From positions 1,387,001 to 1,451,000 of the forward strand of contig NZ_CP147020.1 of the NCBI RefSeq assembly GCF_037126435.1: a stretch of DNA of 64,000 nt, written 5' to 3'. Made by a program: the position numbers and the translations under genes. Within the stretch, counting starts at the first letter, position 1; the number at the start of each line of letters is the position of its first letter. Shown here piece after piece: positions 49,657 through 64,000 of the stretch. The notes beneath the pieces are model-generated. The model was given only the letters and a program-made list of their open reading frames with translations. It made no database searches and was not told where the DNA came from. The DNA comes from Bernardetia sp. ABR2-2B (lineage in GTDB: Bacteria; Bacteroidota; Bacteroidia; Cytophagales; Bernardetiaceae).

Positions 49657-50157
49657 TTAAACCAATTCTTTCCAGCCATTTTTATCAATGTTTTCTACGT
49701 CTGTAATTACTTTTTCTTTTAGGGCTTCTTTGAAGTTATCCAAACGAATTGCCAACTGTTCATCAGACGCACCCAAAATTTGAGCAGCTAAAATACCTGC
49801 ATTCTTTGCTCCATCTAATGCCACAGTAGCCACAGGAACACCTGAAGGCATTTGTAAAATAGACAAAACAGAATCCCAACCATCGATAGAGTTAGAAGAC
49901 TTAACAGGAACACCAATTACAGGCAGTGAAGTAAGCGAAGCCACCATTCCAGGCAAATGCGCTGCCCCTCCTGCACCTGCAATGACTACTTTAATTCCAT
50001 TTTTTCTTGCGTTTTTGGCAAAATCAAACAAACGCTCAGGCGTACGGTGTGCTGAAACAATTGTCAATGAATATTCAACTTTAAGTTCGTCTAAAACTTC
50101 TGCTGCTGCACCCATTACTCGTAAATCAGAACGGCTACCCATTATTATCGAAACCAT
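49657..50157 (-). CDS. purE: N5-carboxyaminoimidazole ribonucleotide mutase
   Basis: Class I PurE converts N5-CAIR to CAIR in purine synthesis. The 166-residue protein has the N-terminal I-M-G-S-R-S-D-L substrate loop, S-A-H-R-T-P-E-R with the catalytic His near 38-45, and A-G-A-G-G-A-A-H-L-P-G-M near 64-75. The later block P-V-I-G-V-P-V is conserved. Length is typical. purK is not adjacent. Monocistronic. Confidence 0.96.
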   Translation of the reverse strand: MVSIIMGSRSDLRVMGAAAEVLDELKVEYSLTIVSAHRTPERLFDFAKNARKNGIKVVIAGAGGAAHLPGMVASLTSLPVIGVPVKSSNSIDGWDSVLSILQMPSGVPVATVALDGAKNAGILAAQILGASDEQLAIRLDNFKEALKEKVITDVENIDKNGWKELV

Positions 50158-50265
50158 AATTTCTTTTTTGTAATTTTTATTCTACAAATAATTTAAAAAT
50201 TCAGTACAATATTACAGAAAATGAGAATAAGAAGTAAAAGTTTATGTGATTTATGTTCAAGAATT

Positions 50266-50925
50266 TTATTCGTTCAAAAGATTTTCTGTGAGATACTCAA
50301 TATTTTTCATTATTAATTCATTAAAAACAATATTTGGATTATCATTTTTTGCTAAATCCATTAAAGAGTAACCTAATCTTACTAACTTACCCATATTTGT
50401 TTCTTCGTATGGAGAACTAACTTGTCCTACTCTGTATCTTACTGAAAAATAATAACGTACCCCGTCTGTCATGGCATTAGAAGATTGAGAATACTTTGCT
50501 TGAAAAATAGCACCTTCAAATATGTTTTCTATTAATTTTACATCACTAGATTGTATAGCCTTTTTATATTTATGGATTGTAGTAGATTCATTTTCTTCAA
50601 GATGAGAAATATTTTTATCACTTTCATGATAAACCAAATAATATTGCTTTTCTTTTCTATCAAATTCTATTTGCAATATACTTTCTGTTCCCCAAGACGG
50701 AAATATTTGAAATCTAAGCAAGGGAGAATCTGATAGTCCTTTCAATAAAACTTCCTTTATTTTTATATTGTACTTATCTTCCCAACTAGACTTAGAAAAA
50801 ATACTTTCTATAGGTTCTAAATGGTCATTTTCTAATGCTTTTTTTATTCCTCGTTCTTTTACAATGTCATAGGATGAACCTTTGACTTTTTGTGTTGATG
50901 AAAATAGATTTTTCAAAAAACTCAT
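50266..50925 (-). CDS. Unrecognised cytoplasmic protein
   Basis: The 219-residue product has no signal peptide or membrane segment. It is mixed alpha/beta, Lys/Ser/Asn-rich, with an N-terminal F-L-K-N-L-F stretch that could be an amphipathic helix. The middle part, with the segment F-P-S-W-G-T-E-S-I, looks beta-stranded. I recognise no family. It stands alone between purE and the thioredoxin-like gene, all on the same strand but separated by a terminator on its upstream side. Confidence 0.6.
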   Translation of the reverse strand: MSFLKNLFSSTQKVKGSSYDIVKERGIKKALENDHLEPIESIFSKSSWEDKYNIKIKEVLLKGLSDSPLLRFQIFPSWGTESILQIEFDRKEKQYYLVYHESDKNISHLEENESTTIHKYKKAIQSSDVKLIENIFEGAIFQAKYSQSSNAMTDGVRYYFSVRYRVGQVSSPYEETNMGKLVRLGYSLMDLAKNDNPNIVFNELIMKNIEYLTENLLNE

Positions 50926-50993
50926 GTCTTTCTAGCTTATAGTAATTGAAGCATATTTTTTTATGAAAGCTAAAATAATTAAATGTAAGCACA

Positions 50994-51032
50994 TAAAAAA
51001 TCCTTATCGTTTTCAATCAACAATAAGGATTC
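50994..51032 (-). terminator. Intrinsic terminator of the thioredoxin-like gene
   Basis: On the minus strand AATCCTTATTGTT and AACGATAAGGATT form a stem followed by a T-run. It lies about 25 bases past the gene at 51056-51580. Confidence 0.7.
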
Positions 51033-51055
51033 AATAATTTTATTTTTTCTATAAT

Positions 51056-51580
51056 TTATAATACTTCTTTAAGCACTTCTACTAACTCTTGATTTGTAAT
51101 AGCTGTTTTTACTATCTCGCCTTTTGGATTGAGAAGAACGTGATAAGGAAGTCCAGAAACTTTATATTTATTACAGGCAGCACTTTCCCAACCTTTCAAG
51201 TCTGAAAGTTCTAACCAAGAAGAATTATTTTGAGCAATAGCTGTTTTCCAACGTTCTTTCGAATTATCCAAAGAAACAGATACAATTTCTAAATTCTTAG
51301 AGTTATATTGCGAATATACTTCATTTAATACATTTCTACCTTTCATACTTTCGCTATTCCAAGAAGCCCAAAAATCTAAAAGTATCCATTTTCCTTTTAG
51401 TTTTTCATTTTTATTAAGATTTTCTAATTCTATTTTTTCGCCTTGAGGAGTTTCTAAATTATTAATTTCTATAACAGGAGATTTTGTTTTGAGAGAAGAA
51501 GAAGAAAACATATTACCACATAATCCAACAAGCAATAAGCTCATAGCAATAATAGGTAAGGCAAATAAGGAGAGTTTCAT
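51056..51580 (-). CDS. Thioredoxin-fold protein without active-site cysteines
   Basis: The 174-residue product has an N-terminal hydrophobic segment (about 5-24), a signal peptide or anchor, so it is exported. The rest is a TlpA/ResA-type thioredoxin fold, from K-W-I-L-L-D-F-W-A-S-W to the cis-proline in S-G-L-P-Y-H-V-L-L-N-P. Where W-C-x-x-C is expected the sequence is W-N-S-E-S, so both redox cysteines are replaced (Asn and Ser). It therefore cannot exchange disulfides in the usual way. It may bind clients or act as a structural subunit. This is the second such protein in the window. Confidence 0.85.
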   Translation of the reverse strand: MKLSLFALPIIAMSLLLVGLCGNMFSSSSLKTKSPVIEINNLETPQGEKIELENLNKNEKLKGKWILLDFWASWNSESMKGRNVLNEVYSQYNSKNLEIVSVSLDNSKERWKTAIAQNNSSWLELSDLKGWESAACNKYKVSGLPYHVLLNPKGEIVKTAITNQELVEVLKEVL

Positions 51581-52136
51581 AGTATTGTTTTGAATAAGAT
51601 TATTTAGATAGTTTTTTTATTGAATATGATTTTGATACACAAAGAGCTGAGAGAGAGTTTACTTTTTATTTTATCATAATTTCATTTTATCGTATGTTTA
51701 AATAGAGAAATTCAGAGTAGCTAAATGAACATATCAAATCACATTTATTATATAGACAAAATTAGTGCTTAGTTTTCTTTAAAAAAATGCAACTTAATAC
51801 TAGAAGTTACGTTAGAGGTATTTTTGCTAGAATAATCTGAGTTTTATTCGTAAAAAGAAGGTAAAAATTGATAAATCAGACGTTTAGATTGAAATTTTAA
51901 CATTTATTTAATGTTTAGATTGGTTTTATTTTAGATTATTTAATACTGTGTAATGCCATCTTAACATACTTTTCATTCAAATTCAATATATTTGCAGTCT
52001 AATTTTGCTTTTATTTTTTGCACTTTTATAAAGGGTTATTGTCCGAACACAACCATTAGTCTAGTAATAAGTGTAGAAAAAAGAGCAATCAATTCATTTT
52101 TTCAATTTGTACGACTTGTACTAGAACCACAAAAAA
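51581..52136. other. Long AT-rich intergenic region ahead of the comA-like gene
   Basis: This 556-bp stretch between two divergently oriented genes holds one good -7 box (see 51987) but no ORF, hairpin or repeat copy that I can support. Confidence 0.5.
51987..51994 (+). promoter_or_regulatory. Predicted -7 box for the comA-like gene
   Basis: TATATTTG followed by CA is a perfect TAnnTTTG. No TTG is found at -33. The leader would be about 135 bases. Confidence 0.4.
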
Positions 52137-52910
52137 ATGCAAGAACAAAACTACTCACTCACTCATATTCCAGAACGTCCTTCAAAGCCACGCCAATCAG
52201 GCGTTACAATGGTAATGGATAAAGGTTTGAGCGTTAGAGAAATAGAAGACCTTATTAGCGTAGCAGGTGATTACATCGATATCGTAAAACTTGGTTGGGC
52301 AACTTCCTATGTTATTCAGAATTTACAAGAAAAACTAGATGTTTATAAAGCAGCTGGGATTCCTACTTACTTTGGTGGGACACTTTTTGAGGCTTTTTTG
52401 GTAAGGAATCAAGTAGATGAATATCAAAAAGTATTGGATAAATATGGAATGCAGTATGCTGAAATTTCGGATGGCTCATTAGATTTAGACCACGAAGAAA
52501 AATGCAAACTCATTGAGCGTTTCTCAAAACAAGTAACTGTTCTTTCAGAAGTAGGCTCAAAAGATGCTGAAAAAATAATTGCTCCCTATCAATGGATTCA
52601 ACTTATGCAAGATGAACTTGCTGCTGGAGCGTGGAAAGTAATTGGAGAAGCTAGAGAAGGTGGAAATGTAGGATTATTCCGTTCTACTGGCGAAGTGCGT
52701 TCAGGACTTGTACAAGAAATTTTGACTAAAATCCCTGCTGAAAAAATAATTTGGGAAGCTCCTCAAAAAGCACAACAAGTTTACTTCATCAAACTCATTG
52801 GTGCAAATGTAAACTTGGGAAATATTGCTCCTAACGAACTGATTCCACTAGAAACTATTCGTTTAGGGCTTCGTGGAGATACTTTTGATTTCTTTTTGAA
52901 TGGAAAGTAA
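52137..52910 (+). CDS. comA: Phosphosulfolactate synthase (ComA-like)
   Basis: ComA adds sulfite to phosphoenolpyruvate to give (R)-phosphosulfolactate. The 257-residue protein has the TIM-barrel features of the family: R-P-S-K-P-R-Q-S-G-V-T-M-V-M-D-K-G-L near the start, D-I-V-K-L-G-W-A-T-S, Y-F-G-G-T-L-F-E, E-I-S-D-G-S, L-S-E-V-G-S-K-D-A, G-A-W-K-V-I-G-E-A-R-E and the closing L-G-L-R-G-D-T. In methanogens this starts coenzyme M synthesis. Bacteria of this phylum make no coenzyme M, so a role in making sulfolactate, sulfopyruvate and cysteate for sulfonolipids is a reasonable inference. comB/comC partners are not in the window. Monocistronic with a terminator behind it. Confidence 0.88.
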   Translation: MQEQNYSLTHIPERPSKPRQSGVTMVMDKGLSVREIEDLISVAGDYIDIVKLGWATSYVIQNLQEKLDVYKAAGIPTYFGGTLFEAFLVRNQVDEYQKVLDKYGMQYAEISDGSLDLDHEEKCKLIERFSKQVTVLSEVGSKDAEKIIAPYQWIQLMQDELAAGAWKVIGEAREGGNVGLFRSTGEVRSGLVQEILTKIPAEKIIWEAPQKAQQVYFIKLIGANVNLGNIAPNELIPLETIRLGLRGDTFDFFLNGK

Positions 52911-52939
52911 AAAGTAATTATTTCGAAAACAAAAACATT

Positions 52940-52971
52940 AATCCTTTTCTATTTTTGAAAAGGATTTTTTT
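52940..52971 (+). terminator. Intrinsic terminator of the comA-like gene
   Basis: AATCCTTTTC and GAAAAGGATT make a perfect 10-bp stem followed by a T-run. Confidence 0.85.
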
Positions 52972-52988
52972 ATAAAAAAATTAAAGTT

Positions 52989-53975
52989 ATGAAAAAAATA
53001 TATTTACTCCTTTTAGTTTTACTTTTTATTCAAGGGTGTGGCACTAAACAACCGAAAGTTTTAGTAAATGAAGAGATTGATAGTCAGCTGAAAGATAAAA
53101 TAGAGAAGATGAATAGAGGTTTTTTAAGAGCAGTTACATCTAATAATATTGGTGTAATGAAAAAAATGATTGATACTGACAAGTATGAAGGTGAGGAAAG
53201 TTTTGAAGCATTTTTTGAAAAAATGCACGAACATATTGAAAGTGATAATTATACTATTTTAGATGAATATCATATTAAGAATACTACTATGGGTGGAGTA
53301 GATACTTTACACTCTATAAATAAGAAAATAAACAGTTATGAGTTACGTTATCCAAAAAAATCTACCGAAATGTTTGTTTCTCTTATTTTGGTTGATTCGT
53401 TTGGTGAAAAAGTTTTACTAACAATTATGTATGGAAGGGTTGTTACAGGCTGGAGAATTGCTGTTCTTCATATCGGAGGATACACAACTAATAATAAAAC
53501 AGCTCCAGAGTTATATATTAAGTCCAAAAAAGAATTTGAAAAAGGTCATTTGATAAACTCTATGAACATAATATTTTTGGCTATAGACAGGCTAGAACCA
53601 GCAGGAATGTATATTAAATATGATTCAGAACAAAAAATAAAAACTCATTATGAGATGGTATTGAGGGATACAAAAATAGCATATACTTTTCCTTTATCTC
53701 TACAAGACATAAAAACTCAACCTATAATTTTTGATATATACCCTGAAGTAGTAGATTCCAACTACTGTCCTGTTTTTAGATATATATCTAAAATAGATAT
53801 TCAAGACACTCTACAACTAAAAGAAGAAAATATTCAAGTTCATGAAAGAGTAAAAAAAATCTTTAAAGGAGTAGATAAAGGTAGCAAAAACATTGCTTAT
53901 AAAGTCTTGAATCGTTTTCCACAAGGAGAATTTGATGAAGTAAAAGGGTATGGATTTTACAAGAAAAATGAATGA
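52989..53975 (+). CDS. Lipoprotein of unknown function
   Basis: The 328-residue product has a classical lipoprotein signal: two Lys, a Leu-rich segment and the lipobox I-Q-G-C at about 14-17, so the mature protein is membrane-anchored. The mature part has a helical N-terminal domain (about 30-110). A beta-rich part follows (about 120-170, including a G-W-R-I-A-V-L-H-I strand resembling the last strand of NTF2-like proteins). After that comes a TPR-like helix pair near 175-200 and a polar end. I do not recognise the whole. A shared terminator separates it from the convergent OmpA gene. Confidence 0.7.
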   Translation: MKKIYLLLLVLLFIQGCGTKQPKVLVNEEIDSQLKDKIEKMNRGFLRAVTSNNIGVMKKMIDTDKYEGEESFEAFFEKMHEHIESDNYTILDEYHIKNTTMGGVDTLHSINKKINSYELRYPKKSTEMFVSLILVDSFGEKVLLTIMYGRVVTGWRIAVLHIGGYTTNNKTAPELYIKSKKEFEKGHLINSMNIIFLAIDRLEPAGMYIKYDSEQKIKTHYEMVLRDTKIAYTFPLSLQDIKTQPIIFDIYPEVVDSNYCPVFRYISKIDIQDTLQLKEENIQVHERVKKIFKGVDKGSKNIAYKVLNRFPQGEFDEVKGYGFYKKNE

Positions 53976-54017
53976 AAAAAGTAGCCATTTGAATTATCAA
54001 ATGGCTACTTTTTTTTT
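53976..54017. terminator. Bidirectional intrinsic terminator
   Basis: AAAAAAGTAGCCATTTGA and TCAAATGGCTACTTTTTTTT form a long perfect stem with A and T runs on either side, between two convergent genes. Confidence 0.9.
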
Positions 54018-54026
54018 CTTACTATT

Positions 54027-56018
54027 CTACAAAATCTCAAACTCTATTCTTCTATTTTTGGCTTTATTCTCTGCCGAATTATTCTCTACCTGTGGTTGTG
54101 CTTCTCCAAAACCTTTAATTACTAATTGCGCCTTTGGGATTCCTGCATTTATTAAATAATCTACTACTGAAGTTGCTCGTTTTTCAGATAATTTTTGATT
54201 GTAGATTTTATCTCCTACATTATCTGTATGCCCAGAAATTTGCACTTTGATTTTCGGATTAGTTTGTAAATATCTAGTTACTAAGTCTAATTCTGTTTTG
54301 GATTCTTCCTTTAATTCCCACTTATCCGTATCAAAGAAAATATTATTCAGAACTACCTTTGAGCCTTTTTCAGCTTTTTCTAAATAAATATCTACCGTTA
54401 CGTTTTCGCCTGTTCCTTCAGAATAATCAAAGGCAAGACTTTGGAATAAATAGCCTTTTTTGTTTACATTGAGCGCATAATTTGACCCTTCATTAAGTAC
54501 AAAAAGATACTTTCCATTTCTTGGGTCAGAGCTTATAGAAGACTGAATAGTTTTATTTGTTAGGTTGTACAAATCTATATTTGCGCCTAGCTTTTCTTTT
54601 GTTTTGGCATCATAGACCGTTCCTTTTATGTATCTACTAACAGTTATTTCAATTTCCTCAGGCATTTCGAATTTGTAAATATAACTATTACCCAAATCTT
54701 CAGCTATTATTCGATTTTGTTTATCTACTTGTAATTCTGTTTCTCCATCTGCATAATAAGCCGTTTTTCCATCTGCTGTAACAAACAGACTTTGTTGATC
54801 GGTGTATGTGTTGATCGGATAGCCTAAATTTTGAGGTTTAGTCCAGCCTTTCTCCGAATTTTCATCTATTTCTGTTTTGAATAAATCAAATCCTCCAAAA
54901 CCCAAGTGTGTATCAGAAGAAAAAAATAACGTTCTGCCATTTACGTGAATAAAAGGACTATACTCTTCACCTGCTGTATTTATTTGACTTCCTAGATTTT
55001 GAGGAGCTTCCCAAACACCTCTATCGTTGCGAGTAGATTTCCAAATATCTGTTCTTCCAAAACCTCCACTTCTATCAGAAATAAAATAAAGTGTTCGTCC
55101 ATCTGCTGAAAGAGATGCTTGTGATTCCCACGATCTAGTATTGATAATATCGCCCATATTTTTAGGTTCAGACCATTTATCTCCCTGCTTTTCGCTGATA
55201 AATAAATCACAACGCCCATAAACTCCTCTTTCACTCCCCTCACAAATAGTAAAAATTATTGTACGCCCATCTGCCGAAATCGTACATGTTCCTTCATTTG
55301 TTTTGGTATTCAGTTCTGTAACTTTTTCAGGAGTTTGCCATAGACTATCTTTCTTGACGCTTCTCAAAATATCTTCATCTGCTCTTGGGTCGTTGCTCTC
55401 TCTTGCCGTAAAATACATTTCTTCTTCGTCGGCTGTCAGAACAGCAAAATATTGTAATTTTCTAGCATTAATAACTTCTGTAACACGTTCTGGCTTTATA
55501 TCTAAAGGATTTTGTATTCCTTCTACTGCAAATTTACAAGTTGCCAAGCCTTTTATTGAAAGATTTTTCTGAGTTTGAGATTTAGCATATTGATATGCTT
55601 TTTGATATAATTTTTCTGCCTCTTCATACTTCCCTTCTTCCAAATAATCTCCTGCAACAACAATATATAAATCTGTTCTGCGTGGGTCGTTGGGTATAAT
55701 TCGTACAGCTTCTTTGAAATGATACTTAGTTTTTGCTTTATTTCGAAGTATATTATAATAAACTCCAAGATTATAATGTGCCTCAAAATAATTATTATCT
55801 AACTCTACTGCTTTCTCAAAAGACTTTATTCCACGCTCAAAATCTCTATTTGCAATATAATCTTTTCCATTTTGATAGGCTGTTTGCGCTCTTCGATTAG
55901 TTGTTCCTTGTGCAGAAGCGAAGTTGGCAGTCAAAACAAGACTAAATGATACTACAAAAAATAAGGCTATAAGTACCGTTTTTTTAAAATTTGATAAGAC
56001 CGAATATGAATTTTTCAT
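54027..56018 (-). CDS. OmpA-family outer-membrane protein with TPR and PD40 repeats
   Basis: The 663-residue protein has a signal peptide (about 1-36, cleavage near A-S-A-Q). TPR units follow at about 40-160. A WD40-like PD40 beta-propeller (about 190-440) has repeated S-A-D-G-R-T-L-Y-F-x-S-D-R-x-G-G-x-G-x-x-D-type segments. Next comes a carboxypeptidase-regulatory-like domain (about 465-545) and a C-terminal OmpA domain (about 555-663) with F-F-D-T-D-K-W-E-L and the peptidoglycan-binding G-H-T-D-N-V-G. It anchors to peptidoglycan from the outer membrane. This architecture is common in Bacteroidota, and related proteins occur in gliding and secretion loci (PorE-like), but nothing here ties it to them. 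Confidence 0.93.
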   Translation of the reverse strand: MKNSYSVLSNFKKTVLIALFFVVSFSLVLTANFASAQGTTNRRAQTAYQNGKDYIANRDFERGIKSFEKAVELDNNYFEAHYNLGVYYNILRNKAKTKYHFKEAVRIIPNDPRRTDLYIVVAGDYLEEGKYEEAEKLYQKAYQYAKSQTQKNLSIKGLATCKFAVEGIQNPLDIKPERVTEVINARKLQYFAVLTADEEEMYFTARESNDPRADEDILRSVKKDSLWQTPEKVTELNTKTNEGTCTISADGRTIIFTICEGSERGVYGRCDLFISEKQGDKWSEPKNMGDIINTRSWESQASLSADGRTLYFISDRSGGFGRTDIWKSTRNDRGVWEAPQNLGSQINTAGEEYSPFIHVNGRTLFFSSDTHLGFGGFDLFKTEIDENSEKGWTKPQNLGYPINTYTDQQSLFVTADGKTAYYADGETELQVDKQNRIIAEDLGNSYIYKFEMPEEIEITVSRYIKGTVYDAKTKEKLGANIDLYNLTNKTIQSSISSDPRNGKYLFVLNEGSNYALNVNKKGYLFQSLAFDYSEGTGENVTVDIYLEKAEKGSKVVLNNIFFDTDKWELKEESKTELDLVTRYLQTNPKIKVQISGHTDNVGDKIYNQKLSEKRATSVVDYLINAGIPKAQLVIKGFGEAQPQVENNSAENKAKNRRIEFEIL

Positions 56019-56467
56019 GTATATAAATTTGGATTATTATTTTACTATCAATAACGTCAGTATCTTTTATAAATTATTTGATTCTATTAGTTGATTATAT
56101 TCTAAGAATCGAACCAAGTTTAATTTTAGTTTTGCCTAAGACGATTTAAAGCAAGATAAAAATGAGCAAAAACTATCTTTCTTGGTGCAAGAACTCTGCT
56201 TCTTTACACTTTGTTAAAAATTTCATAAAAAAACACCAAAATCTATAAGTCAAATTATGAAATGTTCAAACATCCAAATTAATAATTACGAAATACATAA
56301 AATTTAATCAAATTTATTGATAAATTTTCAACAAAAGAATCTTTTACTTTACTTTGTATCATCAGAAAGAGAAAAACATTACAAATTTCACAAAAAAAAT
56401 ATTATTGTAGATAATCGTATTTTGAAATTAATTGATAACTGTTTTACTGAAAACTGGTAACTGAAAA

Positions 56468-56597
56468 TGTAGGATGGTGAAATTTTGGCAGCCACGCCCT
56501 TCGGTCTCAAGGGTGAAGGTTTGGGATAAACGAATTAATTAGTTTTGCTAATTAATTTGCTAACTACTTCGTGAAGGTTCGAGTCCTTCTCCTACAG
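56468..56597 (+). tRNA. tRNA-like gene, class II type, with abnormal anticodon loop and 59-base variable region
   Basis: The acceptor strands TGTAGGA (56468-56474) and TCCTACA (56590-56596) pair perfectly. T at position 8, a D arm GTG/CAC with a GG-containing loop typical of tRNA-Leu, and a perfect T arm (GAAGG, loop TTCGAGT, CCTTC; 56573-56589) are all present. The anticodon arm is odd. CCCTT/AAGGG closes a 7-base loop CGGTCTC lacking the universal U33. The alternative pairing CCTTC/GAAGG leaves a 12-base loop containing CTCAAGG (a CAA-like anticodon). The variable region would be 59 bases with two hairpins of its own (GTTT/AAAC and AATTAATTAG/CTAATTAATT). No CCA is encoded; the discriminator is G. 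It could be a decayed tRNA-Leu, a tRNA with an inserted palindrome, or a tRNA-derived small RNA. Confidence 0.5.
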
Positions 56598-56610
56598 CAA
56601 AATAATAATT

Positions 56611-56653
56611 AAAAAAAGACTTGAAGGTATAATTTACTTTCAAGTCTTTTTTT
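56611..56653 (+). terminator. Intrinsic terminator of the tRNA-like gene
   Basis: AAAAAAAGACTTGAA and TTCAAGTCTTTTTTT are exact inverted copies around a 13-base loop, 14 bases after the acceptor end. It also serves the convergent glycosyltransferase gene. Confidence 0.88.
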
Positions 56654-56677
56654 GTGATTTTTAAAGTAAAAAATTGA

Positions 56678-57895
56678 TTATCTAACTGTCTGATTTGTAT
56701 CCTTTATCCTTTGATATATTTCGATATATTTTTGAGCTAATTTTTGAGAAGAAAAATCATTTTGAATAATATGGGGAGCAGTTTGACGTATATTTTTTCT
56801 TTTCATTTTATCATCAATGACTGTTTGTAGCGTTTGAAGTAGAGAAACCACATCATTTGTTTTGCACACCCAGCCTAATTCTTTTTCTTTTACATAACTA
56901 GCTAGACCAACTTTATCAGAAACTAAAACAGGCGTTCCCGTACTCAAACACTCTATCACTACATTAGCAAAATTTTCATTAAAGGAAGGTAAAACAAAAA
57001 GGTCGGAATTTGCTAAACATTCAAATTTTTGGCTTCCTTCCAGCCAACCTACCCAGTTTACTTTGTCTTTTAAATTATTTTGATGAATTATTTTTTTTAA
57101 GGCATTTTGATATTCTACGCTTTCACTTTTCCCAATTAAATCCAGTTGTAAATTTATTTTTGAGTCATTATTATTTTCAAATTGTAACATAGCTTCAAAC
57201 AGAATTTCCAATCCTTTTTTGTGATGAATTCTGGACATAAAGACTAATTTGAAAGTATTAGATGATTCTGTTTTTTGAGTCTTTATTTTGAGTTTGTTTG
57301 TAGGAAGAGATAATAAGTTTGGCAATACAAAAACACGATTATCTTTTATATAATCTACTTCATCTCTTTCTATTTGTGCTGTCAGATGTAAATACGATTT
57401 TTTGAGAAGTTTTTTTCCTATAAATTTATGAAAAATACTTTTAGGAGATTTTTTTTGAGATTGAAGTGTGTATTCTCCTAGCATTCCACGAGGAGCAACA
57501 ATTACTTTTACACCTTTCCAAATACATATTAAAACAGAAAAAACAGCAACTGTATTCCACCACGAATGCACATGAATAGCATCAAAATTTTGAGCTGTTT
57601 GAAAGAGTTTTTTTAATAATCTAATAGAAAAGTGAGTATGGTCTTTTGTCTGACGGCTAAAATACCAAACCTCTACTCCATCTACTAAAATAGGTGTATT
57701 ATTCTTAATATCTAATTCTTCTGTTCCATTTGCTGTTGTTGTATAAACGGTTACTTTGTTTATTGATTCATTATTTCTATTGTCTTGGTTATTCATAAAG
57801 TCAGCTTGTGCCTCACACAGACGACTTATAGATACAGTAGTTCCTCCATAAATATAAGCAGGTTTATAAGAAGGAGTAATATGAAGAATATTCAA
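56678..57895 (-). CDS. Glycosyltransferase family 4
   Basis: The 405-residue GT-B enzyme starts M-N-I-L-H-I-T-P-S-Y with a glycine-rich Y-G-G-T-T loop. It has H-V-H-S-W-W-N near 96-102, R-G-M-L-G-E-Y, the C-terminal F-M-S-R-I-H-H-K-K-G-L-E and the family motif E-N-F-A-N-V-V-I-E-C-L-S-T-G-T-P-V near 310-326 (the E-x7-E type). It transfers a sugar from a nucleotide donor to a growing glycan at the inner face of the membrane. The start is TTG preceded by an in-frame TAA, and the family's usual N-terminus begins exactly here. It follows the polymerase-like gene by 37 bp on the same strand, so both probably serve surface polysaccharide synthesis. Confidence 0.92.
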   Translation of the reverse strand: MNILHITPSYKPAYIYGGTTVSISRLCEAQADFMNNQDNRNNESINKVTVYTTTANGTEELDIKNNTPILVDGVEVWYFSRQTKDHTHFSIRLLKKLFQTAQNFDAIHVHSWWNTVAVFSVLICIWKGVKVIVAPRGMLGEYTLQSQKKSPKSIFHKFIGKKLLKKSYLHLTAQIERDEVDYIKDNRVFVLPNLLSLPTNKLKIKTQKTESSNTFKLVFMSRIHHKKGLEILFEAMLQFENNNDSKINLQLDLIGKSESVEYQNALKKIIHQNNLKDKVNWVGWLEGSQKFECLANSDLFVLPSFNENFANVVIECLSTGTPVLVSDKVGLASYVKEKELGWVCKTNDVVSLLQTLQTVIDDKMKRKNIRQTAPHIIQNDFSSQKLAQKYIEIYQRIKDTNQTVR

Positions 57896-57932
57896 TTAAT
57901 TAATTTTTAAAGATTATAGAATAAAACTATTA

Positions 57933-59345
57933 CTACGATTCATAATTGGGATTCTTTACAATCACATTGAATCTTTTTGCTGTATGAAATAATAAATACA
58001 TCGTAACTATACTCCAAAATACAGCATTAAATACGTATTCAAAGGCATTACCTCTTATCAAAATATAAAACAACCCTAAAAAGATACATCCAGAACCAAT
58101 GGCGTAACCACCAAATAAAGATTCTGCCTTTTTAGATAGAAATGTAACTAAAACACCCAATAAAAATAGAGCGCAAAAAATTCCTATTTCTCCACCTACA
58201 ATATAAGAATCTGCAATAAAAGCAGGTTTGGCAGACACAATAGTACCACTACCTACTGCCCCTATTTCATATACTCTATCCATAATTACTTGCTCGGGTA
58301 CTGGTTTGCTTGGATAAAGAATACGAGGAGGGATAGATTCTAATGATTGAACAAGCACCTCTTGTGTCATGTAAGGTATTTCTATGGGTACTCTCTCCAC
58401 ATACACCATAAACATTTTTATTTCAGAGAGTCGATGTGTCAAAAATAGCCAGTTATCATCTAACAAACCATCTACATCTTGATTACCGACTCTTTCTAAT
58501 GCTATAGATGCAGCTTGTGCCGATGCTAACCCTCCTCCCCAACTCAAGTTCCTAACAGCATTAGTATAATAAGGAATAACAAATAAAAATAAAAAAAACA
58601 TAAAAGGAGATGCTATTAAAATAGTTTTTTTATACTTTGACCATAAAATAGCTGATAGAAGTAACATTGGAAGCACTGTAAACTCTTTCCAACCAGAAGT
58701 TAGTGCTTGAAACTCTCCATAAAAAAACAATATTCCTGTTATGAACATATACTTTTTTTCCTTCTCTAGTAAAGCATAACCAAATGAGAAGACAGCAAAA
58801 ACAGCTGTGGAGAGCTGAAATTGGCTTACAAACTGTGCTCCACCTGGTACAAACCTAAAAAAGATACTTCCTGCAAAGAAAAATAGAGTTGTAAAAAAAA
58901 GAATTTTAGAGATAGAGGTTTTAGAAGAGACTTGAATTATATATTTTGGAACTTTATATGTTGAAAATAAGAGTAAACCATGTACATAAGCAGCATGTCC
59001 TAAGCAATACAAAATTTGACAGTAAGCGACACTTGATATATACACATACGACTCTTCTGCTTTTATTTTATCAAGATATAGATACCCCATAGAATCTAAA
59101 TAGAAAAAGATAGATGTAACGGCCATATAACCTGAAAAGATAAGATGAACCAAGAAAAAAGGACGAAATACTTGATTCAATACAGGACGATCAGTTGGAA
59201 GTTTTTTGACTGTTCCTGTGAAAGTAACTAGATATATCCATAATGAACCACTCCAAGCTGTCCAGTAGGCTAGTGAAGGGCTTGTAGAATGAAATAAGAA
59301 GGCTAAAAAAACAGGTAAGTAGAGTAGTAAATAACGTGGATTCAT
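57933..59345 (-). CDS. Polytopic membrane protein, probable oligosaccharide repeat-unit polymerase (Wzy-like)
   Basis: The 470-residue protein has about 12 hydrophobic segments. There is a large loop of about 75 residues (about 290-365) containing I-P-P-R-I-L-Y-P-S-K-P and followed by Y-I-V-G-G-E-I-G-I. Such a loop between the late helices, with P-R and a following G-G-x-x-G helix, is typical of O-antigen or exopolysaccharide polymerases, which act at the periplasmic side. The family varies too much for certainty. It is not RodA/FtsW, although it lies downstream of PBP2 where rodA often sits. The next gene on the same strand is a glycosyltransferase. Confidence 0.72.
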   Translation of the reverse strand: MNPRYLLLYLPVFLAFLFHSTSPSLAYWTAWSGSLWIYLVTFTGTVKKLPTDRPVLNQVFRPFFLVHLIFSGYMAVTSIFFYLDSMGYLYLDKIKAEESYVYISSVAYCQILYCLGHAAYVHGLLLFSTYKVPKYIIQVSSKTSISKILFFTTLFFFAGSIFFRFVPGGAQFVSQFQLSTAVFAVFSFGYALLEKEKKYMFITGILFFYGEFQALTSGWKEFTVLPMLLLSAILWSKYKKTILIASPFMFFLFLFVIPYYTNAVRNLSWGGGLASAQAASIALERVGNQDVDGLLDDNWLFLTHRLSEIKMFMVYVERVPIEIPYMTQEVLVQSLESIPPRILYPSKPVPEQVIMDRVYEIGAVGSGTIVSAKPAFIADSYIVGGEIGIFCALFLLGVLVTFLSKKAESLFGGYAIGSGCIFLGLFYILIRGNAFEYVFNAVFWSIVTMYLLFHTAKRFNVIVKNPNYES

Positions 59346-59477
59346 TGTATATTAATACGGTTTTTGTCTTAGGAATAGAAATTAAATAAATTGACACTTT
59401 TAATTATATAATTAACTAATAGTCAGAAGTTTAATTCGTCATTTTTCCTTACAGACAATAAGAAATTTCTTTCAGCT

Positions 59478-61481
59478 TCATTCTTCATCTTCTCTTTTTG
59501 CTTCTGCTAATACAACATTAGATTCTCCTGTATTTTTCTTGGGTAATTTATTTTTTTGAGTAATAAGAGCTGCCTGTTTTTCTTCTTCCTTTTTTTGCCT
59601 TTTCTGTCTTTTGCGCTCTTCTTCTTTTTCTAACCGTATTCTTTCTTGCTCAACTAAATTAAGCTCTATGATTCTCTTTTCTTTATATTTTACATTTCTA
59701 TCAGAAATAGTATCATTGATATATTTTTCCATCATCAAACTCGCTATTGGAGCTGCCCATGTTCCTCCAAAACCTGCATTTTCTACTACAACAGCTATTG
59801 CTATTTTTGGATTATCTTTTGGTGCAAAAGCTATAAAAATAGAATGATCTTCTCCATGGGGGTTCTGAACAGTTCCTGTTTTTCCACATACTACAATATC
59901 ATCTATCCTTGCTCTACGAGCTGTTCCTGCACGTACAACATCTGCCATAGCATCAACTACATAAGGAAAGTATTTTTCATCAACAGTAGTTTTTTGTTTT
60001 GTTCTGTATTTTATATCTACTAAAGTAGTATCATTTATTGACCTAACAACATGAGGAATATAATAATGTCCTCTATTTGCTAAAATTGAAGCAAAGTTAG
60101 CCAGTTGTAATGGAACAGCACTCATTTCTCCTTGTCCGATACTAAGAGAATAAATATTACCTAATTTCCATCCATAACCACGCCTTTCTGCTATCTTATC
60201 ATAATATGCTGTTGAAGGAATAAGTCCTCTACTTTCATAAGGTAAGTCTATTCCTAGTTTTCTACCAAACCCAAAAGACAAAGCGTGGTCGTGCCAACTG
60301 TCTAAACCAACACGAGTATCTTCTTTGTCATTTTCAGAACGATGTTGACGAATAATTCTGATGAATGATTTATAATAAAATGGATTACAAGAATGTTGAA
60401 TAGAACCATGTATATCTAATGGCGAAGGATGATTATGACAATTTACAAGCTCCTTAGAGCAACTAAATGAAGTATGAACAGTATCCAAAACACCATCTTG
60501 CAAACCTATCAAAGCCTGTACGATCTTAAAAGTAGAACCAGGAGGATAGGCAGCTTGTAATGCACGATTATAGAGTGGCTTTGTAGGGTCTTGAGAAAGC
60601 ATTAAATAATTCTTTGCTACTTCTGTTCCTTCTCCTGTAAGAAGGTTGGGGTCAAAAGTCGGTGCAGAAACCATCGATAATACTTCTCCTGTCTTTGGGT
60701 CAATGGCTACAATACTACCAATTTTGTTTTGCATCAAATACTCGCCATACTTTTGAAGTTCGGCGTCTATTGTTGTTTGTAAGGCTAGACCTGCTTCTGG
60801 AAGCGTATCATACTCTCCATCTTGAAAAGAACCTCTAGCAATTCCCAAACGGTCGTACATAACCTGTTGAACTCCTCTTTCTCCTCTTAATTCTTCTTCA
60901 TAACTTCTTTCTATACCACTAATACCGAGCATATCTCCACGTCTGTAATACCCAGCTGTATCTTTAGAAAGCATACGTTGGTCAATTTCACGTACATACC
61001 CCAAACCACCAGCAAAAGAAGCATAAGGATACTTACGAATCGTTCTTACATTTGGATAAATACCTTCATAATCAGAGAGTTCGTCCTGTATTTTGGCATA
61101 ATTCTCTACTGACATTTGTTTTATAAAAAGATAGGGTTTATAGCGTTGTAATCCGTGTCTTGCCTTCTGTAATTTTTCTCTAAACTCATCTAAAGAAATA
61201 CGCAAAAGCTGACACAGACGAGTTGTGTCATTTGGTTCTAGCTTAAATTCTTTTGCTATAATTTCTATATCAAAAACAGGATTGTTTTCGACAATTATTT
61301 TTCCATCTCTATCATAAACAAGTCCACGAGGAGGATATAAAATATTTGTTCGTGTAGAGGTATTTTGAGCTTGTTGTTGAAAATCATCAGAAATAACTTG
61401 CAACCAAAGAAGTTGAAAACCATAGATTAACAAAACTACTAAAATAGCTACTTGAATGATATATCGTCGAAGGTCGTTCAA
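59478..61481 (-). CDS. mrdA: Penicillin-binding protein 2 (elongation transpeptidase)
   Basis: PBP2 cross-links peptidoglycan during cell elongation. It has one N-terminal membrane helix (about 9-28), the pedestal/dimerisation domain (about 45-220) and a transpeptidase domain. The active-site motifs are S-T-F-K at 316-319, S-C-N near 366-368 and K-T-G at 534-536. The C-terminus has an unusual basic, Glu/Lys/Arg/Gln-rich tail of about 50 residues. The start seems to be TTG; no in-frame ATG precedes it and the next Met is far inside. Normally mreBCD precede and rodA follows, but neither is in the window. A partial -7 box lies about 100 bases upstream. Confidence 0.95.
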   Translation of the reverse strand: MNDLRRYIIQVAILVVLLIYGFQLLWLQVISDDFQQQAQNTSTRTNILYPPRGLVYDRDGKIIVENNPVFDIEIIAKEFKLEPNDTTRLCQLLRISLDEFREKLQKARHGLQRYKPYLFIKQMSVENYAKIQDELSDYEGIYPNVRTIRKYPYASFAGGLGYVREIDQRMLSKDTAGYYRRGDMLGISGIERSYEEELRGERGVQQVMYDRLGIARGSFQDGEYDTLPEAGLALQTTIDAELQKYGEYLMQNKIGSIVAIDPKTGEVLSMVSAPTFDPNLLTGEGTEVAKNYLMLSQDPTKPLYNRALQAAYPPGSTFKIVQALIGLQDGVLDTVHTSFSCSKELVNCHNHPSPLDIHGSIQHSCNPFYYKSFIRIIRQHRSENDKEDTRVGLDSWHDHALSFGFGRKLGIDLPYESRGLIPSTAYYDKIAERRGYGWKLGNIYSLSIGQGEMSAVPLQLANFASILANRGHYYIPHVVRSINDTTLVDIKYRTKQKTTVDEKYFPYVVDAMADVVRAGTARRARIDDIVVCGKTGTVQNPHGEDHSIFIAFAPKDNPKIAIAVVVENAGFGGTWAAPIASLMMEKYINDTISDRNVKYKEKRIIELNLVEQERIRLEKEEERKRQKRQKKEEEKQAALITQKNKLPKKNTGESNVVLAEAKREDEE

Positions 61482-61580
61482 ATCTGAATATTTTTTACTT
61501 TTGGAAGTTTTTGGGGAGCTTTATATCAATGACAAAAAGAACTTTCTTTTGCTTTCAGTTTATCTTCTACTAAAAGACTA

Positions 61581-61588
61581 CAAAGTTA
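61581..61588 (-). promoter_or_regulatory. Possible -7 box for PBP2
   Basis: On the minus strand TAACTTTG fits TAnnTTTG. No TTG lies at the expected distance. Confidence 0.3.
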
Positions 61589-62161
61589 AGCACTTTATCC
61601 CACTTATTTAGAATAAATACTGTTATAAATAATCTAAAAATGATACCAGTAATTATTTTTTTGTCGAAGGAAAAAAGGTCTATATAGAATAAATCCTATT
61701 CTTTATTTGAATTATATCAATATATACCAAAACATAAATTTTGTGTTCAGAAGCTGACTTGTATTTCTAGCTTAGAAAAGATTCAGATGAAATGAGAGTA
61801 AGCGAGACTTGACATGTTATATTCGTTTTAACTTTTCTAAAGAAATCAATTTAATATAACTATTCGGAGTAGAGAAATCAAGAATATATTTTGTTTGTAT
61901 TCAAAGTTTCGAACACAAACAAAACGTATTGAAACTTAAAATGCGTTCATATATTTTGCAAAAAATTAAAAATAGTATTTTTTATCAAAAAAAACACATT
62001 TTATTATCTCTATAATACAATTTTCAAAAAGCACTTTTTTGTTAAAAAAATTGATTTATCAAAAAAAAACAAAATATTATTTACATTATGTCAATAAAAG
62101 TAAATTTTAGTTTCGTAAAATAATTAATTTAAAACGTTTTATATGTTTTTTATGCCTTATG

Positions 62162-62192
62162 TTTGATGATACTTTTAAATGTAATACATTTG
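62162..62192 (+). promoter_or_regulatory. Predicted Bacteroidota promoter for the RHS-type gene
   Basis: TTTG (62162-62165), a 19-base spacer and TACATTTG (62185-62192) fit the phylum consensus exactly. Transcription should start near 62199, about 35 bases before the ATG at 62234. Confidence 0.75.
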
Positions 62193-62233
62193 CACCTTCA
62201 AACAACTCAATTATTCTCTGTAAAGGCATAACT

Positions 62234-64000
62234 ATGAAACTATTCCAACTTTATACCATCTTTCTTTTTGTATTTTTATCATCTATTTACACAACTACAC
62301 AGGCACAAGGAACGGGAGACCAAGACCCATTAGAAGTAAAAATCTTTCCACCTTCTCCCAATACAGCGAGTTTGGGGAAGTATGGAGAAGTACCTGTGGG
62401 TTTATACACAGGAATTCCACAAATTTCTATTCCACTTACCACAGTACAGAGCGGAAGCCTTTCAATGCCTATTAGTTTGAGTTACCATGCAGGTGGCATA
62501 CGTGTAGAAGAAATTGCAAGTTGGGTAGGCTTAGGTTGGAGCTTGAATGCTGGAGGGGTTATTACTAGACAGGTTAGGGGGATTCCTGATGAGTTGGATA
62601 TGGATAGGCAAGAGAATATTGGTAATATAAAAATAAGTGAAGCTAATAATCCTAATCTTGCAAGAGAATTGATGTCAGATGTAGTTTTTGGTTCTAGAGA
62701 TACTCAATCTGATTTATATGTTTTTAATATTAATGGAATATCGGGAAAGTTTTTTCTTGGAAATGATAATGAAGTCTTATTTGATAAGCAACAGGACTTA
62801 AAAGTAAAGAGAATAGACGCTTCTTCGTGGATAATGACTGATGGTAGTGGTAATAAATACTATTTTGGAAAAAGTAAAGATAAATCAAAAGCTGCTATTG
62901 AGATTGGAGAGAACTTCTCAGTAAATAATCTTTCTAGTGATGGTTATAGCGCAATTACAGCTTGGTATATCACAGAAATAGAAGACGTCACAGAACAACA
63001 TAAAATAAATTTTAACTATAAAACAGTACCATCAATTAGCTATTACAGAAGTGCAGAAAAAGAGATGTTATCAGTAACTAATTCAGATGCTTGTTCTGCT
63101 CCTTACTTAGGATACAAGAGGTATTTTACAGCCTCTATGGTTGACCAAATTATACTAGAATCAATAACAAGTCAGAATCAAAAGATAAATTTCATAACAG
63201 ATGTAGATAGAGAAGACTTAAAAGATGGTTTCGGTAGAGCAGCAAAGGCTTTAAGTAAAATTATTGTTGTGCGTAATGATAATCAAAGTATTATAAGAGA
63301 ATACAATCTATCTTATAGTTATTTTCCATCTCTAGGTGTAACAAATAGATATAATCAACTTAATATTTCAGACGAACAACGGTATAAAAAATTACGTCTG
63401 AATCAAGTTCAAGAGAAAAATGGAAACTTAATAATTCCACCTCACAAGTTTGAATACAATTCTCTCCCTATCCCCGAACGTTTTTCTTGTCAAATGGACT
63501 TTTGGGGATTTTACAATGGTAAAGATGAAAATGATAATCGGTATAACTTGAAATTGATTCCCACTTCAGATATTTCATTTCTTCCCTATTCAGACCTTCA
63601 GGTTCGTTATGAAGGAGCAAATCGTTTACCTGATGAAAAATACATGAAAGCTGGAATACTAGAAAAGATAGTTTATCCTACAGGAGGTTATACCAAATTT
63701 GAGTACGAAGCAAATAAAACAATAGATATAATAAAGTTTCCAAAAGGTTATAGAAATGAGTATGTCTTTAGACGTAAAAGAATGGAAGTTATTGAAGATA
63801 ATCTAAATACAACCACAGAGCAAATATTTGAAATAAACAATGCTTCTGAACCAGGACAAGTCATACCTAAAATTCCTTTAGAATGGAGGCTTGAAAATAT
63901 GCACTGTGAAGGAGACTTTGCTACAATTACTTGTGGAATAGAAATACGAATAGAAAGTATATCAAATCCTACATTTACTCCTATTACTTTACGTAATGAA
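62234..64000 (+). CDS. Large secreted RHS-type protein, N-terminal part (runs off the window)
   Basis: The frame is open from ATG 62234 to the right edge, 589 codons, with no stop. There is a signal peptide (hydrophobic about 5-22, cleavage near T-Q-A-Q). The next part has P-S-P-N-T-A-S-L-G-K-Y-G, I-S-I-P-L-T-T-V, L-S-Y-H-A-G-G-I-R-V, W-V-G-L-G-W-S-L-N-A-G-G-V-I-T-R and later Y-P-T-G-G-Y-T-K-F-E-Y-E. These blocks mark the N-terminal shell region of Bacteroidota RHS/YD-repeat proteins, which form a cage around a variable C-terminal domain, often a toxin. The toxin end, if any, lies outside the window. It is likely exported through the Sec system and then the type IX or another route. Confidence 0.88.
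   Translation, partial: MKLFQLYTIFLFVFLSSIYTTTQAQGTGDQDPLEVKIFPPSPNTASLGKYGEVPVGLYTGIPQISIPLTTVQSGSLSMPISLSYHAGGIRVEEIASWVGLGWSLNAGGVITRQVRGIPDELDMDRQENIGNIKISEANNPNLARELMSDVVFGSRDTQSDLYVFNINGISGKFFLGNDNEVLFDKQQDLKVKRIDASSWIMTDGSGNKYYFGKSKDKSKAAIEIGENFSVNNLSSDGYSAITAWYITEIEDVTEQHKINFNYKTVPSISYYRSAEKEMLSVTNSDACSAPYLGYKRYFTASMVDQIILESITSQNQKINFITDVDREDLKDGFGRAAKALSKIIVVRNDNQSIIREYNLSYSYFPSLGVTNRYNQLNISDEQRYKKLRLNQVQEKNGNLIIPPHKFEYNSLPIPERFSCQMDFWGFYNGKDENDNRYNLKLIPTSDISFLPYSDLQVRYEGANRLPDEKYMKAGILEKIVYPTGGYTKFEYEANKTIDIIKFPKGYRNEYVFRRKRMEVIEDNLNTTTEQIFEINNASEPGQVIPKIPLEWRLENMHCEGDFATITCGIEIRIESISNPTFTPITLRNE

Follow-up and report, generated by a model that had tools for sequence, protein, structure and literature searches.

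A conserved tRNA-like RNA of Bacteroidota and their phages and its possible role as a carrier for asparagine synthesis

Results

A tRNA-like gene with an extended variable arm

A stretch of 64,000 nucleotides from Bernardetia sp. ABR2-2B (contig NZ_CP147020.1, positions 1,387,001 to 1,451,000), here called the window, harbours a gene for a tRNA-like RNA at 56468..56598; this and all features below lie on the forward strand. Read from the sequence, the element has 131 nucleotides, counting discriminator G73 and C74. Comparison with relatives indicates that it is real, belongs to a conserved RNA family and is not a decayed tRNA.

The acceptor stem TGTAGGA/TCCTACA is complete (7/7 pairs; 5' strand 56468..56474, 3' strand followed by G73 and C74 56590..56598, CCA not encoded), with U1 paired to A72 and G2 to C71, both pairs being invariant in the 33 sequences aligned below. 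The D arm (56477..56495) has a GTG/CAC stem and the Leu-like loop AAATTTTGGCAGC, and the T arm (56573..56589; GAAGG-TTCGAGT-CCTTC, read from the sequence and paired also in relatives) forms 5/5 stem pairs. Between them lie the anticodon arm CCCTT-CGGTCTC-AAGGG (56497..56513), displaying G34, U35, C36, U37 and C38, and an extended variable arm (56515..56570). Perfect acceptor and T stems, a Leu-like D arm with GG, a variable region of 59 nucleotides and the absence of U33 from CGGTCTC had been pointed out in an initial annotation of this DNA, and direct reading of 56468-56598 agrees on each point.

The outer stem of the variable arm, GAAG/CTTC, joins 56515-56518 with 56567-56570. Further inside, the alignment of relatives reveals a conserved internal loop, with GGGATAAA on its 5' side (56523..56530) and CTAAC on its 3' side (56560..56564), around a distal hairpin (56531..56559) that differs in sequence and length among members. 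What had been taken for two independent hairpins is thus, on comparison, a single long arm. A palindromic AATTAATTAG hairpin is present in the window element, whose single-sequence fold modestly beats shuffled sequences (z -2.24). An own terminator had also been proposed, and a hairpin resembling an intrinsic terminator, with a T tract, indeed follows at 56610..56654 (one found, shuffle mean 0.0). A U/G-rich 3' trailer ahead of the terminator (TTTTGGGTTTATTGTTAATTGACTAA and variants) is conserved in many Cytophagales, for example at loci L086, L101, L103 and L143. Upstream, TACTTTG (56350..56356) is a near match to TAnnTTTG, which we take to be the consensus of the Bacteroidota -7 box. The exact box, absent here, occurs up to 120 nucleotides upstream of the RNA at 56 of 76 loci from named genomes, where 7.5 are expected by shuffling.

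Conservation and covariation

With window positions 56440-56665 as DNA query, 29 of 59 related genomes gave matches. We kept 44 distinct BLAST-found elements having at least four anticodon-stem pairs and the required 3' end AGC, and aligned 33 of them. The cloverleaf together with the 4-bp variable-arm stem pairs in 792 of 792 cells, each of the 24 proposed pairs being formed in every one of the 33 relatives, which bears out the earlier suspicion that the element is under selection. Changes on both sides of a pair are found in 13 of 24 pairs and in all five helices; the shuffled mean is 5.4, and 13 was reached in 0 of 500 shuffles. Control structures slid along the same 33 sequences pair in 51-62% of cells, a comparison that favours the proposed structure, derived as it was from these sequences. 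Two-sided changes affect two of the three D-stem pairs and three of the four pairs of the outer variable-arm stem.

A 7-bp acceptor, D arm, T arm, 5-bp anticodon stem and 7-nucleotide anticodon loop, all as in canonical elongator tRNAs, are present in 33 of 33 sequences. The alternative anticodon stem CCTTC/GAAGG, exposing CAA in a loop of 12 nucleotides, proved wrong: it is CCCTT/AAGGG with the 7-nucleotide loop that covaries, relatives having CCCTC/GGGGG, CCCCT/AGGGG, CCCGC/GCGGG or CCTCC/GGAGG. The loop reads CGGUCUC in the window and its genus and mostly CUGUCUC in the family. The distal hairpin ranges from GC-GAAA-GC (L059) to tens of nucleotides, and the variable arm reaches about 100 nucleotides in some members.

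A covariance model of the family gives 128.6 bits to the window element, itself part of the training set. In 295 genomes sampled from the class of the window, the model separates members, with at least 78 bits and more than 107 nucleotides, from the next listed matches, with at most 69 bits and 77-88 nucleotides. Reading 12 matches of 60-69 bits (77-87 nucleotides) identified 11 as ordinary tRNA-Leu and the remaining one as a short member, a 77-nucleotide version in genome G021 that lacks the whole extra arm and is named tRNA-Asp(atc) by ARAGORN. Genomes were called RNA-positive from 75 bits upwards, and G021 is counted as RNA-negative throughout. As the class-sample search used strict filters and scored 10 candidates per genome, its RNA-negative genomes include possible misses. 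The RNA was found in 50 of the 295 genomes, in 20 families, and in 41 of the 59 related genomes by score, to which two elements cut by contig ends are added (43).

These results bear on the options first considered for the locus, namely tRNA decay with insertion of a palindrome, a tRNA whose insert is removable and a tRNA-derived regulatory RNA. The Leu-like D loop and the palindromic hairpin would suit decay of a tRNA-Leu or a tRNA from which an intron is removed. Decay is refuted, because the relatives, 41 of 59 genomes, keep full and covarying cloverleaf pairing, and the family extends over the 20 sampled families; a removable insert is unsupported, because conservation extends to the outer arm stem and to the internal loop that encloses the hairpin. 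We therefore give these explanations next to no credence. The third option stands as to its general class, a functional RNA derived from tRNA; a regulatory role is less likely than that of an enzyme substrate, as discussed below.

Detection by standard tools

ARAGORN reports neither a tRNA nor a tmRNA (transfer-messenger RNA) in the window. A scan of 50000-64000 with Rfam at E<=1 left the element unmatched, with only a chance microRNA match elsewhere, and the elements at L061, L227, L237, L207 and L212 have no Rfam coverage at the gathering score. The family thus goes unseen by the tRNA finder and the RNA library used, so that it will probably be overlooked in standard annotation. In a search of the genome with the general tRNA model, the element was not among 66 matches, a result that is weak alone because 150 of 460 candidates were scored and at least one ordinary tRNA-Leu was also missed. 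A tmRNA, with its tag reading frame between tRNA halves, was rejected as an identity, given the ARAGORN result and the separate tmRNA carried by phages; likewise, a group I or other intron, tmRNA or Y-RNA-like RNA has no Rfam support in 50000-64000. No description of such an RNA was found in open-access full-text literature, a coverage that excludes subscription papers and preprints, and this RNA family of Bacteroidota and their phages has apparently been undescribed so far.

Distribution in bacteria and phages

The Bernardetia genome itself carries four copies, three of them in tandem elsewhere, and another genome has six tandem copies. A pattern scan of named genomes yielded at least 119 stretches, of which 80 of 119 were searched with the model. 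The named matches listed include Hymenobacter, Algoriphagus, Cyclobacterium, Echinicola, Dyadobacter, Spirosoma, Pontibacter, Fulvivirga, Flammeovirga, Phaeodactylibacter and Portibacter, as well as assemblies of Saprospiraceae and Chitinophagaceae.

In a viral collection, 88 stretches were found by pattern; 80 of 88 were searched with the model, which finds the RNA in them, two copies being cut by an end. Open reading frames (ORFs) near 13 viral elements look phage-like by reading alone (PhoH-, terminase-, ThyX- and HNH-like). Four blastn queries matched none of the named phage and plasmid records. The phage tRNA arrays are shared by GOLLD RNA in two of four scanned (L227 6933-7342, L237 8203-8609).

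Phage versions (e.g. L237 2552-2723, L231 4874-5021) contain GGGGUAGACCACC or GGGUUGACCAC as a motif, along with a loop that is complementary to itself (GCCGGCCGGC, GCTAGCTAGC, TTGTGCACAA); some also carry a hairpin insert in the D loop. Judged from their letters, such loops might possibly mediate dimerisation. For palindromes, the observed value is 8.53 in 60 viral elements versus 5.92 after shuffling, with 18 elements, many of them close kin, at p<=0.05; 180 bacterial elements show no excess (observed 5.48, shuffled 5.65).

Identity letters

Identity letters were read in a set of 42 distinct elements from model matches (an element could be read at 33 of 49 loci; the set overlaps partially with the 44 BLAST-found elements). 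U1-A72, G2-C71, G73, U35 and C36 occur in all 42, G34 and C38 in 41 each; U33 is kept in 28, whereas position 37 holds U in 39 elements and G in three. Among the 44 BLAST-found elements, where A72 and G73 are fixed by the AGC filter, U35, C36 and C38 occur in 44 of 44 and G34 in 36. A broader set of 240 readable distinct elements, with one unreadable element left out, has U1-A72 in 236 and G73 in 240. Its loop letters are biased, the DNA pattern having fixed TCTC, and three loops lacking letters of the TCTC/TCCC type, two reading TCCAGCC and one GTAGACC, appear to be parsing errors.

In the identity review PMC9976931, G73, G34, U35, C36 and C38 are given as the strong determinants for aspartate, with G1-C72 also important for bacterial Asp identity; U1-A72 is the signal for amidating Asp-tRNA-Asn, and tRNA-Asp escapes amidation by G1-C72 and U20a. 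The family thus carries all five strong aspartate determinants, lacks G1-C72 and has in its place the U1-A72 of a GatCAB substrate. In the Bernardetia genome the ordinary tRNA-Asp GUC has G1-C72 and the chromosomal tRNA-Asn U1-A72. The A73 and Leu anticodon of a tRNA-Leu are absent, G73 and a CUGUCUC-type loop being found instead. A seryl-tRNA synthetase identity, conceivable from G73 and the long arm, was set aside, as the loop letters point to Asp.

An unusual but decoding tRNA, reading through its GUC anticodon as Asp or recoding to Asn, would agree with retention of U33 in most members and with phage arrays that hold many tRNAs and tmRNA: 47 of the 80 viral stretches have at least one ARAGORN tRNA or tmRNA, 12 of them tmRNA. 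Yet the combination of U33 and purine 37 expected of an elongator is not kept, U33 being lost in 14 of 42 elements and purine 37 in 39. Moreover, the variable arm of up to about 100 nucleotides, the presence of an ordinary tRNA-Asp GUC in the same genome and the 33 viral stretches with neither tRNA nor tmRNA besides this RNA all speak against decoding, which we regard as improbable.

Association with GatB

In the class sample, 226 genomes have GatB, 14 have AsnA and 38 have an AsnB of E. coli type that scores above the cut-off. GatCAB, its presence judged from the GatB domain alone, accompanies the RNA without exception: GatB occurs in 50 of 50 RNA-positive versus 176 of 245 RNA-negative genomes (Fisher test, kinship ignored, P = 5.6e-7). 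AsnA or AsnB, the asparagine synthetases, occur in 1 of 50 (AsnA 1, AsnB 0) versus 43 of 245 (P = 0.0036). Among the 59 relatives, GatB, with 53 positives, looked unspecific until RNA-negative genomes were compared, giving 43 of 43 versus 10 of 16 (P = 1.8e-4). AsnA or AsnB is there found, among the matches listed, in 2 of 43 versus 8 of 16 (P = 1.9e-4), five AsnB assignments being based on NCBIfam (two), on reading (two) and on match shape only (one).

The association also holds inside families in which GatB varies (f61, f56, f23 and f36), where every GatB-less genome is without the RNA (product 1.7e-4). In f61, six RNA-positive genomes all have GatB and three RNA-negative ones all lack it and have AsnB; f56 has four RNA-positive genomes with GatB versus two RNA-negative ones without, and f23 three versus one, the last with AsnA. 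This within-family test covers 14 of the 20 RNA-bearing families, the other six being represented by one genome each. Asparaginyl-tRNA synthetase (AsnRS) is present in 59 of 59 relatives, so free asparagine would be useful to them. PMC4206432 lists 18 genera of bacteria, Bacteroidetes among them, with AsnRS, glutaminyl-tRNA synthetase and GatCAB and no Asn synthetase, explained so far by a non-discriminating aspartyl-tRNA synthetase (AspRS) acting on tRNA-Asn.

An AsnC-type regulator as neighbour

The initial annotation expected orthologues beside OmpA and glycosyltransferase genes; in many genera they adjoin an AsnC-type regulator instead. Clustering of ORFs at the 119 named loci listed puts one family in 61, the next in 30, and by its sequence the commonest family is an AsnC-type regulator. 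Among solved structures it matches E. coli AsnC best (2cg4, E 6.1e-36), and one regulator examined with NCBIfam (L127) scores 171.8 bits for AsnC, below the cut-off of 227, and 46.9 for Lrp; AsnC is still the closest by far. The regulator lies within the stretch at 45 of 80 named loci and is divergent from the RNA in 45 of 45, with a median gap of 153 bp. The outer flanks beyond it vary between genera, and the next recurrent neighbours are suf genes placed after AsnC. Of 29 asnB loci read, two, belonging to two families (G155, G307), have this regulator divergent from asnB; it stands beside asnA in 0 of 11 asnA loci read. In E. coli, asnC and asnA are transcribed divergently, and AsnC senses asparagine and adjusts asnA.

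This neighbourhood invites the idea of an aminoacylation sensor or regulatory RNA that, charged with Asp, would inform the AsnC system or translation of the Asp/Asn state and make no bulk Asn. The conserved internal loop and the extra arm could serve such a function. A sensor would, however, not need GatB, alongside which alone the RNA is found, and the stretches of the 13 viral loci read contain no AsnC; we consider it unlikely, though the least so of the alternatives. Another use of a GatCAB substrate would be as donor of Asn or Asp to a non-ribosomal transferase modifying lipid, peptide or wall. The identity letters and the association with GatB would be the same, but no transferase recurs beside the RNA, where AsnC and then suf genes do, and phage carriage fits poorly, so that this too seems improbable.

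Other tRNA genes of the genome

Two further observations concern tRNA genes of the Bernardetia genome. At C1:4796259-4797340 (L357 760-1860), outside the window, there is an array of four tRNAs, each with an insert of about 30-65 nucleotides. GGTCAA-N7-TTACTTC is found there at nine places with at most one mismatch, inside and between the tRNAs (11 matches at up to three mismatches versus 1.0 expected), and its intergenic copies adjoin apparent tRNA halves; small introns or permuted tRNAs are possible. At L077 808-882, ARAGORN predicts a tRNA with a four-base anticodon (ttcc).

Discussion

We propose, with slightly more confidence than doubt, that the RNA is a dedicated non-decoding carrier on which aspartate is charged and amidated to asparagine. 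An enzyme substrate, and not a regulatory RNA, is its most likely role. The gene product would be processed like a tRNA and carry a charged amino acid without decoding. AspRS would load aspartate by way of G34, U35, C36, C38 and discriminator G73, and GatCAB would amidate the bound Asp to Asn because U1-A72 replaces the G1-C72 of tRNA-Asp. Three features would keep the RNA off the ribosome, so that Asn is not inserted at Asp codons: a pyrimidine at 37, a U33 that is often missing and a variable arm of unusual size. Asn released by hydrolysis or a putative deacylase would feed AsnRS, and the divergent AsnC-type regulator of many genera would tune the level of the RNA to asparagine. The RNA would thus offer a second route beside the ordinary one, with an Asp anticodon that suits a discriminating AspRS, a U1-A72 that suits GatCAB and a loop that should be unfit for decoding.

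Several points weigh against this proposal. The RNA lacks G1-C72, also part of bacterial tRNA-Asp identity, and G34 is replaced by A, C or U in 8 of the 44 BLAST-found elements. Neither the RNA nor AsnA/AsnB is present in 166 of 226 GatB-positive genomes, and within GatB-positive genomes RNA and synthetase are not significantly opposed (1 of 50 versus 10 of 176, P = 0.46), so the RNA tracks GatB and not the lack of a synthetase as such; G018 and G038 carry the RNA and AsnA together. Asparagine-synthase-like paralogues above the cut-off of TIGR01536, a model too broad to call AsnB, occur in 52 of 59 relatives, the Bernardetia genome included, and could make Asn. The Fisher values above do not correct for kinship. 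The sequence of AspRS does not separate RNA-positive from RNA-negative genomes: of 22 genomes read, 20 have R[DN][KA]G where it is expected, whether or not they carry the RNA or GatB, G016 and G020 being unreadable in this stretch. The ordinary tRNA-Asn route would do if AspRS were non-discriminating, since the genome's own tRNA-Asn has U1-A72. No AsnC lies in the stretch at 35 of 80 named loci or in the window, and we know of no release enzyme.

If the carrier proposal is true, two jobs of tRNA have been separated here, the chemistry being retained in a tRNA that no longer decodes. The presence of GatCAB beside AsnRS in so many Bacteroidota would then be explained, members lacking asparagine synthetase would have a supply of free Asn, and phages would be carriers of a metabolic RNA. 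The full claim is more tentative, and our belief in it stops somewhat short of even: a ribosome-excluded tRNA serving solely as a scaffold for amino acid synthesis, which would yield free Asn through discriminating AspRS and GatCAB, take the place of asparagine synthetase in much of the Bacteroidota under AsnC control, and travel with phages as an auxiliary metabolic RNA, in some cases with self-complementary loops that could dimerise.

Among the nearest known systems is tRNA-dependent Asn synthesis on tRNA-Asn by non-discriminating AspRS and GatCAB. Shared with it are U1-A72, G73, U35, C38, GatCAB in the genome and, as proposed, charging with Asp followed by amidation. In contrast, the GUC anticodon (C36) of our RNA fits a discriminating AspRS, and the RNA is apparently unable to decode and is a separate gene with an extra arm, located beside AsnC, which would regulate it. 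The loop CUGUC.C, G2-C71 and G73 recall tRNA-Asp(GUC), from which the RNA differs by U1-A72 for G1-C72, U37 for A37, the Leu-like D arm, the long variable arm and the frequent loss of U33. Class II tRNA-Leu, its probable ancestor, resembles it in the D-arm sequence and long variable arm, whereas G73 for A73, a non-Leu loop and a much longer arm set the RNA apart. As in the E. coli asnC-asnA pair, an AsnC-type regulator diverges from what would be an asparagine-making gene, but the partner here is an RNA gene, or asnB in two Bacteroidota loci. Finally, a tRNA-Gly of Staphylococcus is a non-decoding tRNA for cell-wall synthesis; it offers a precedent for a charged tRNA unused by the ribosome, with another amino acid and other enzymes.
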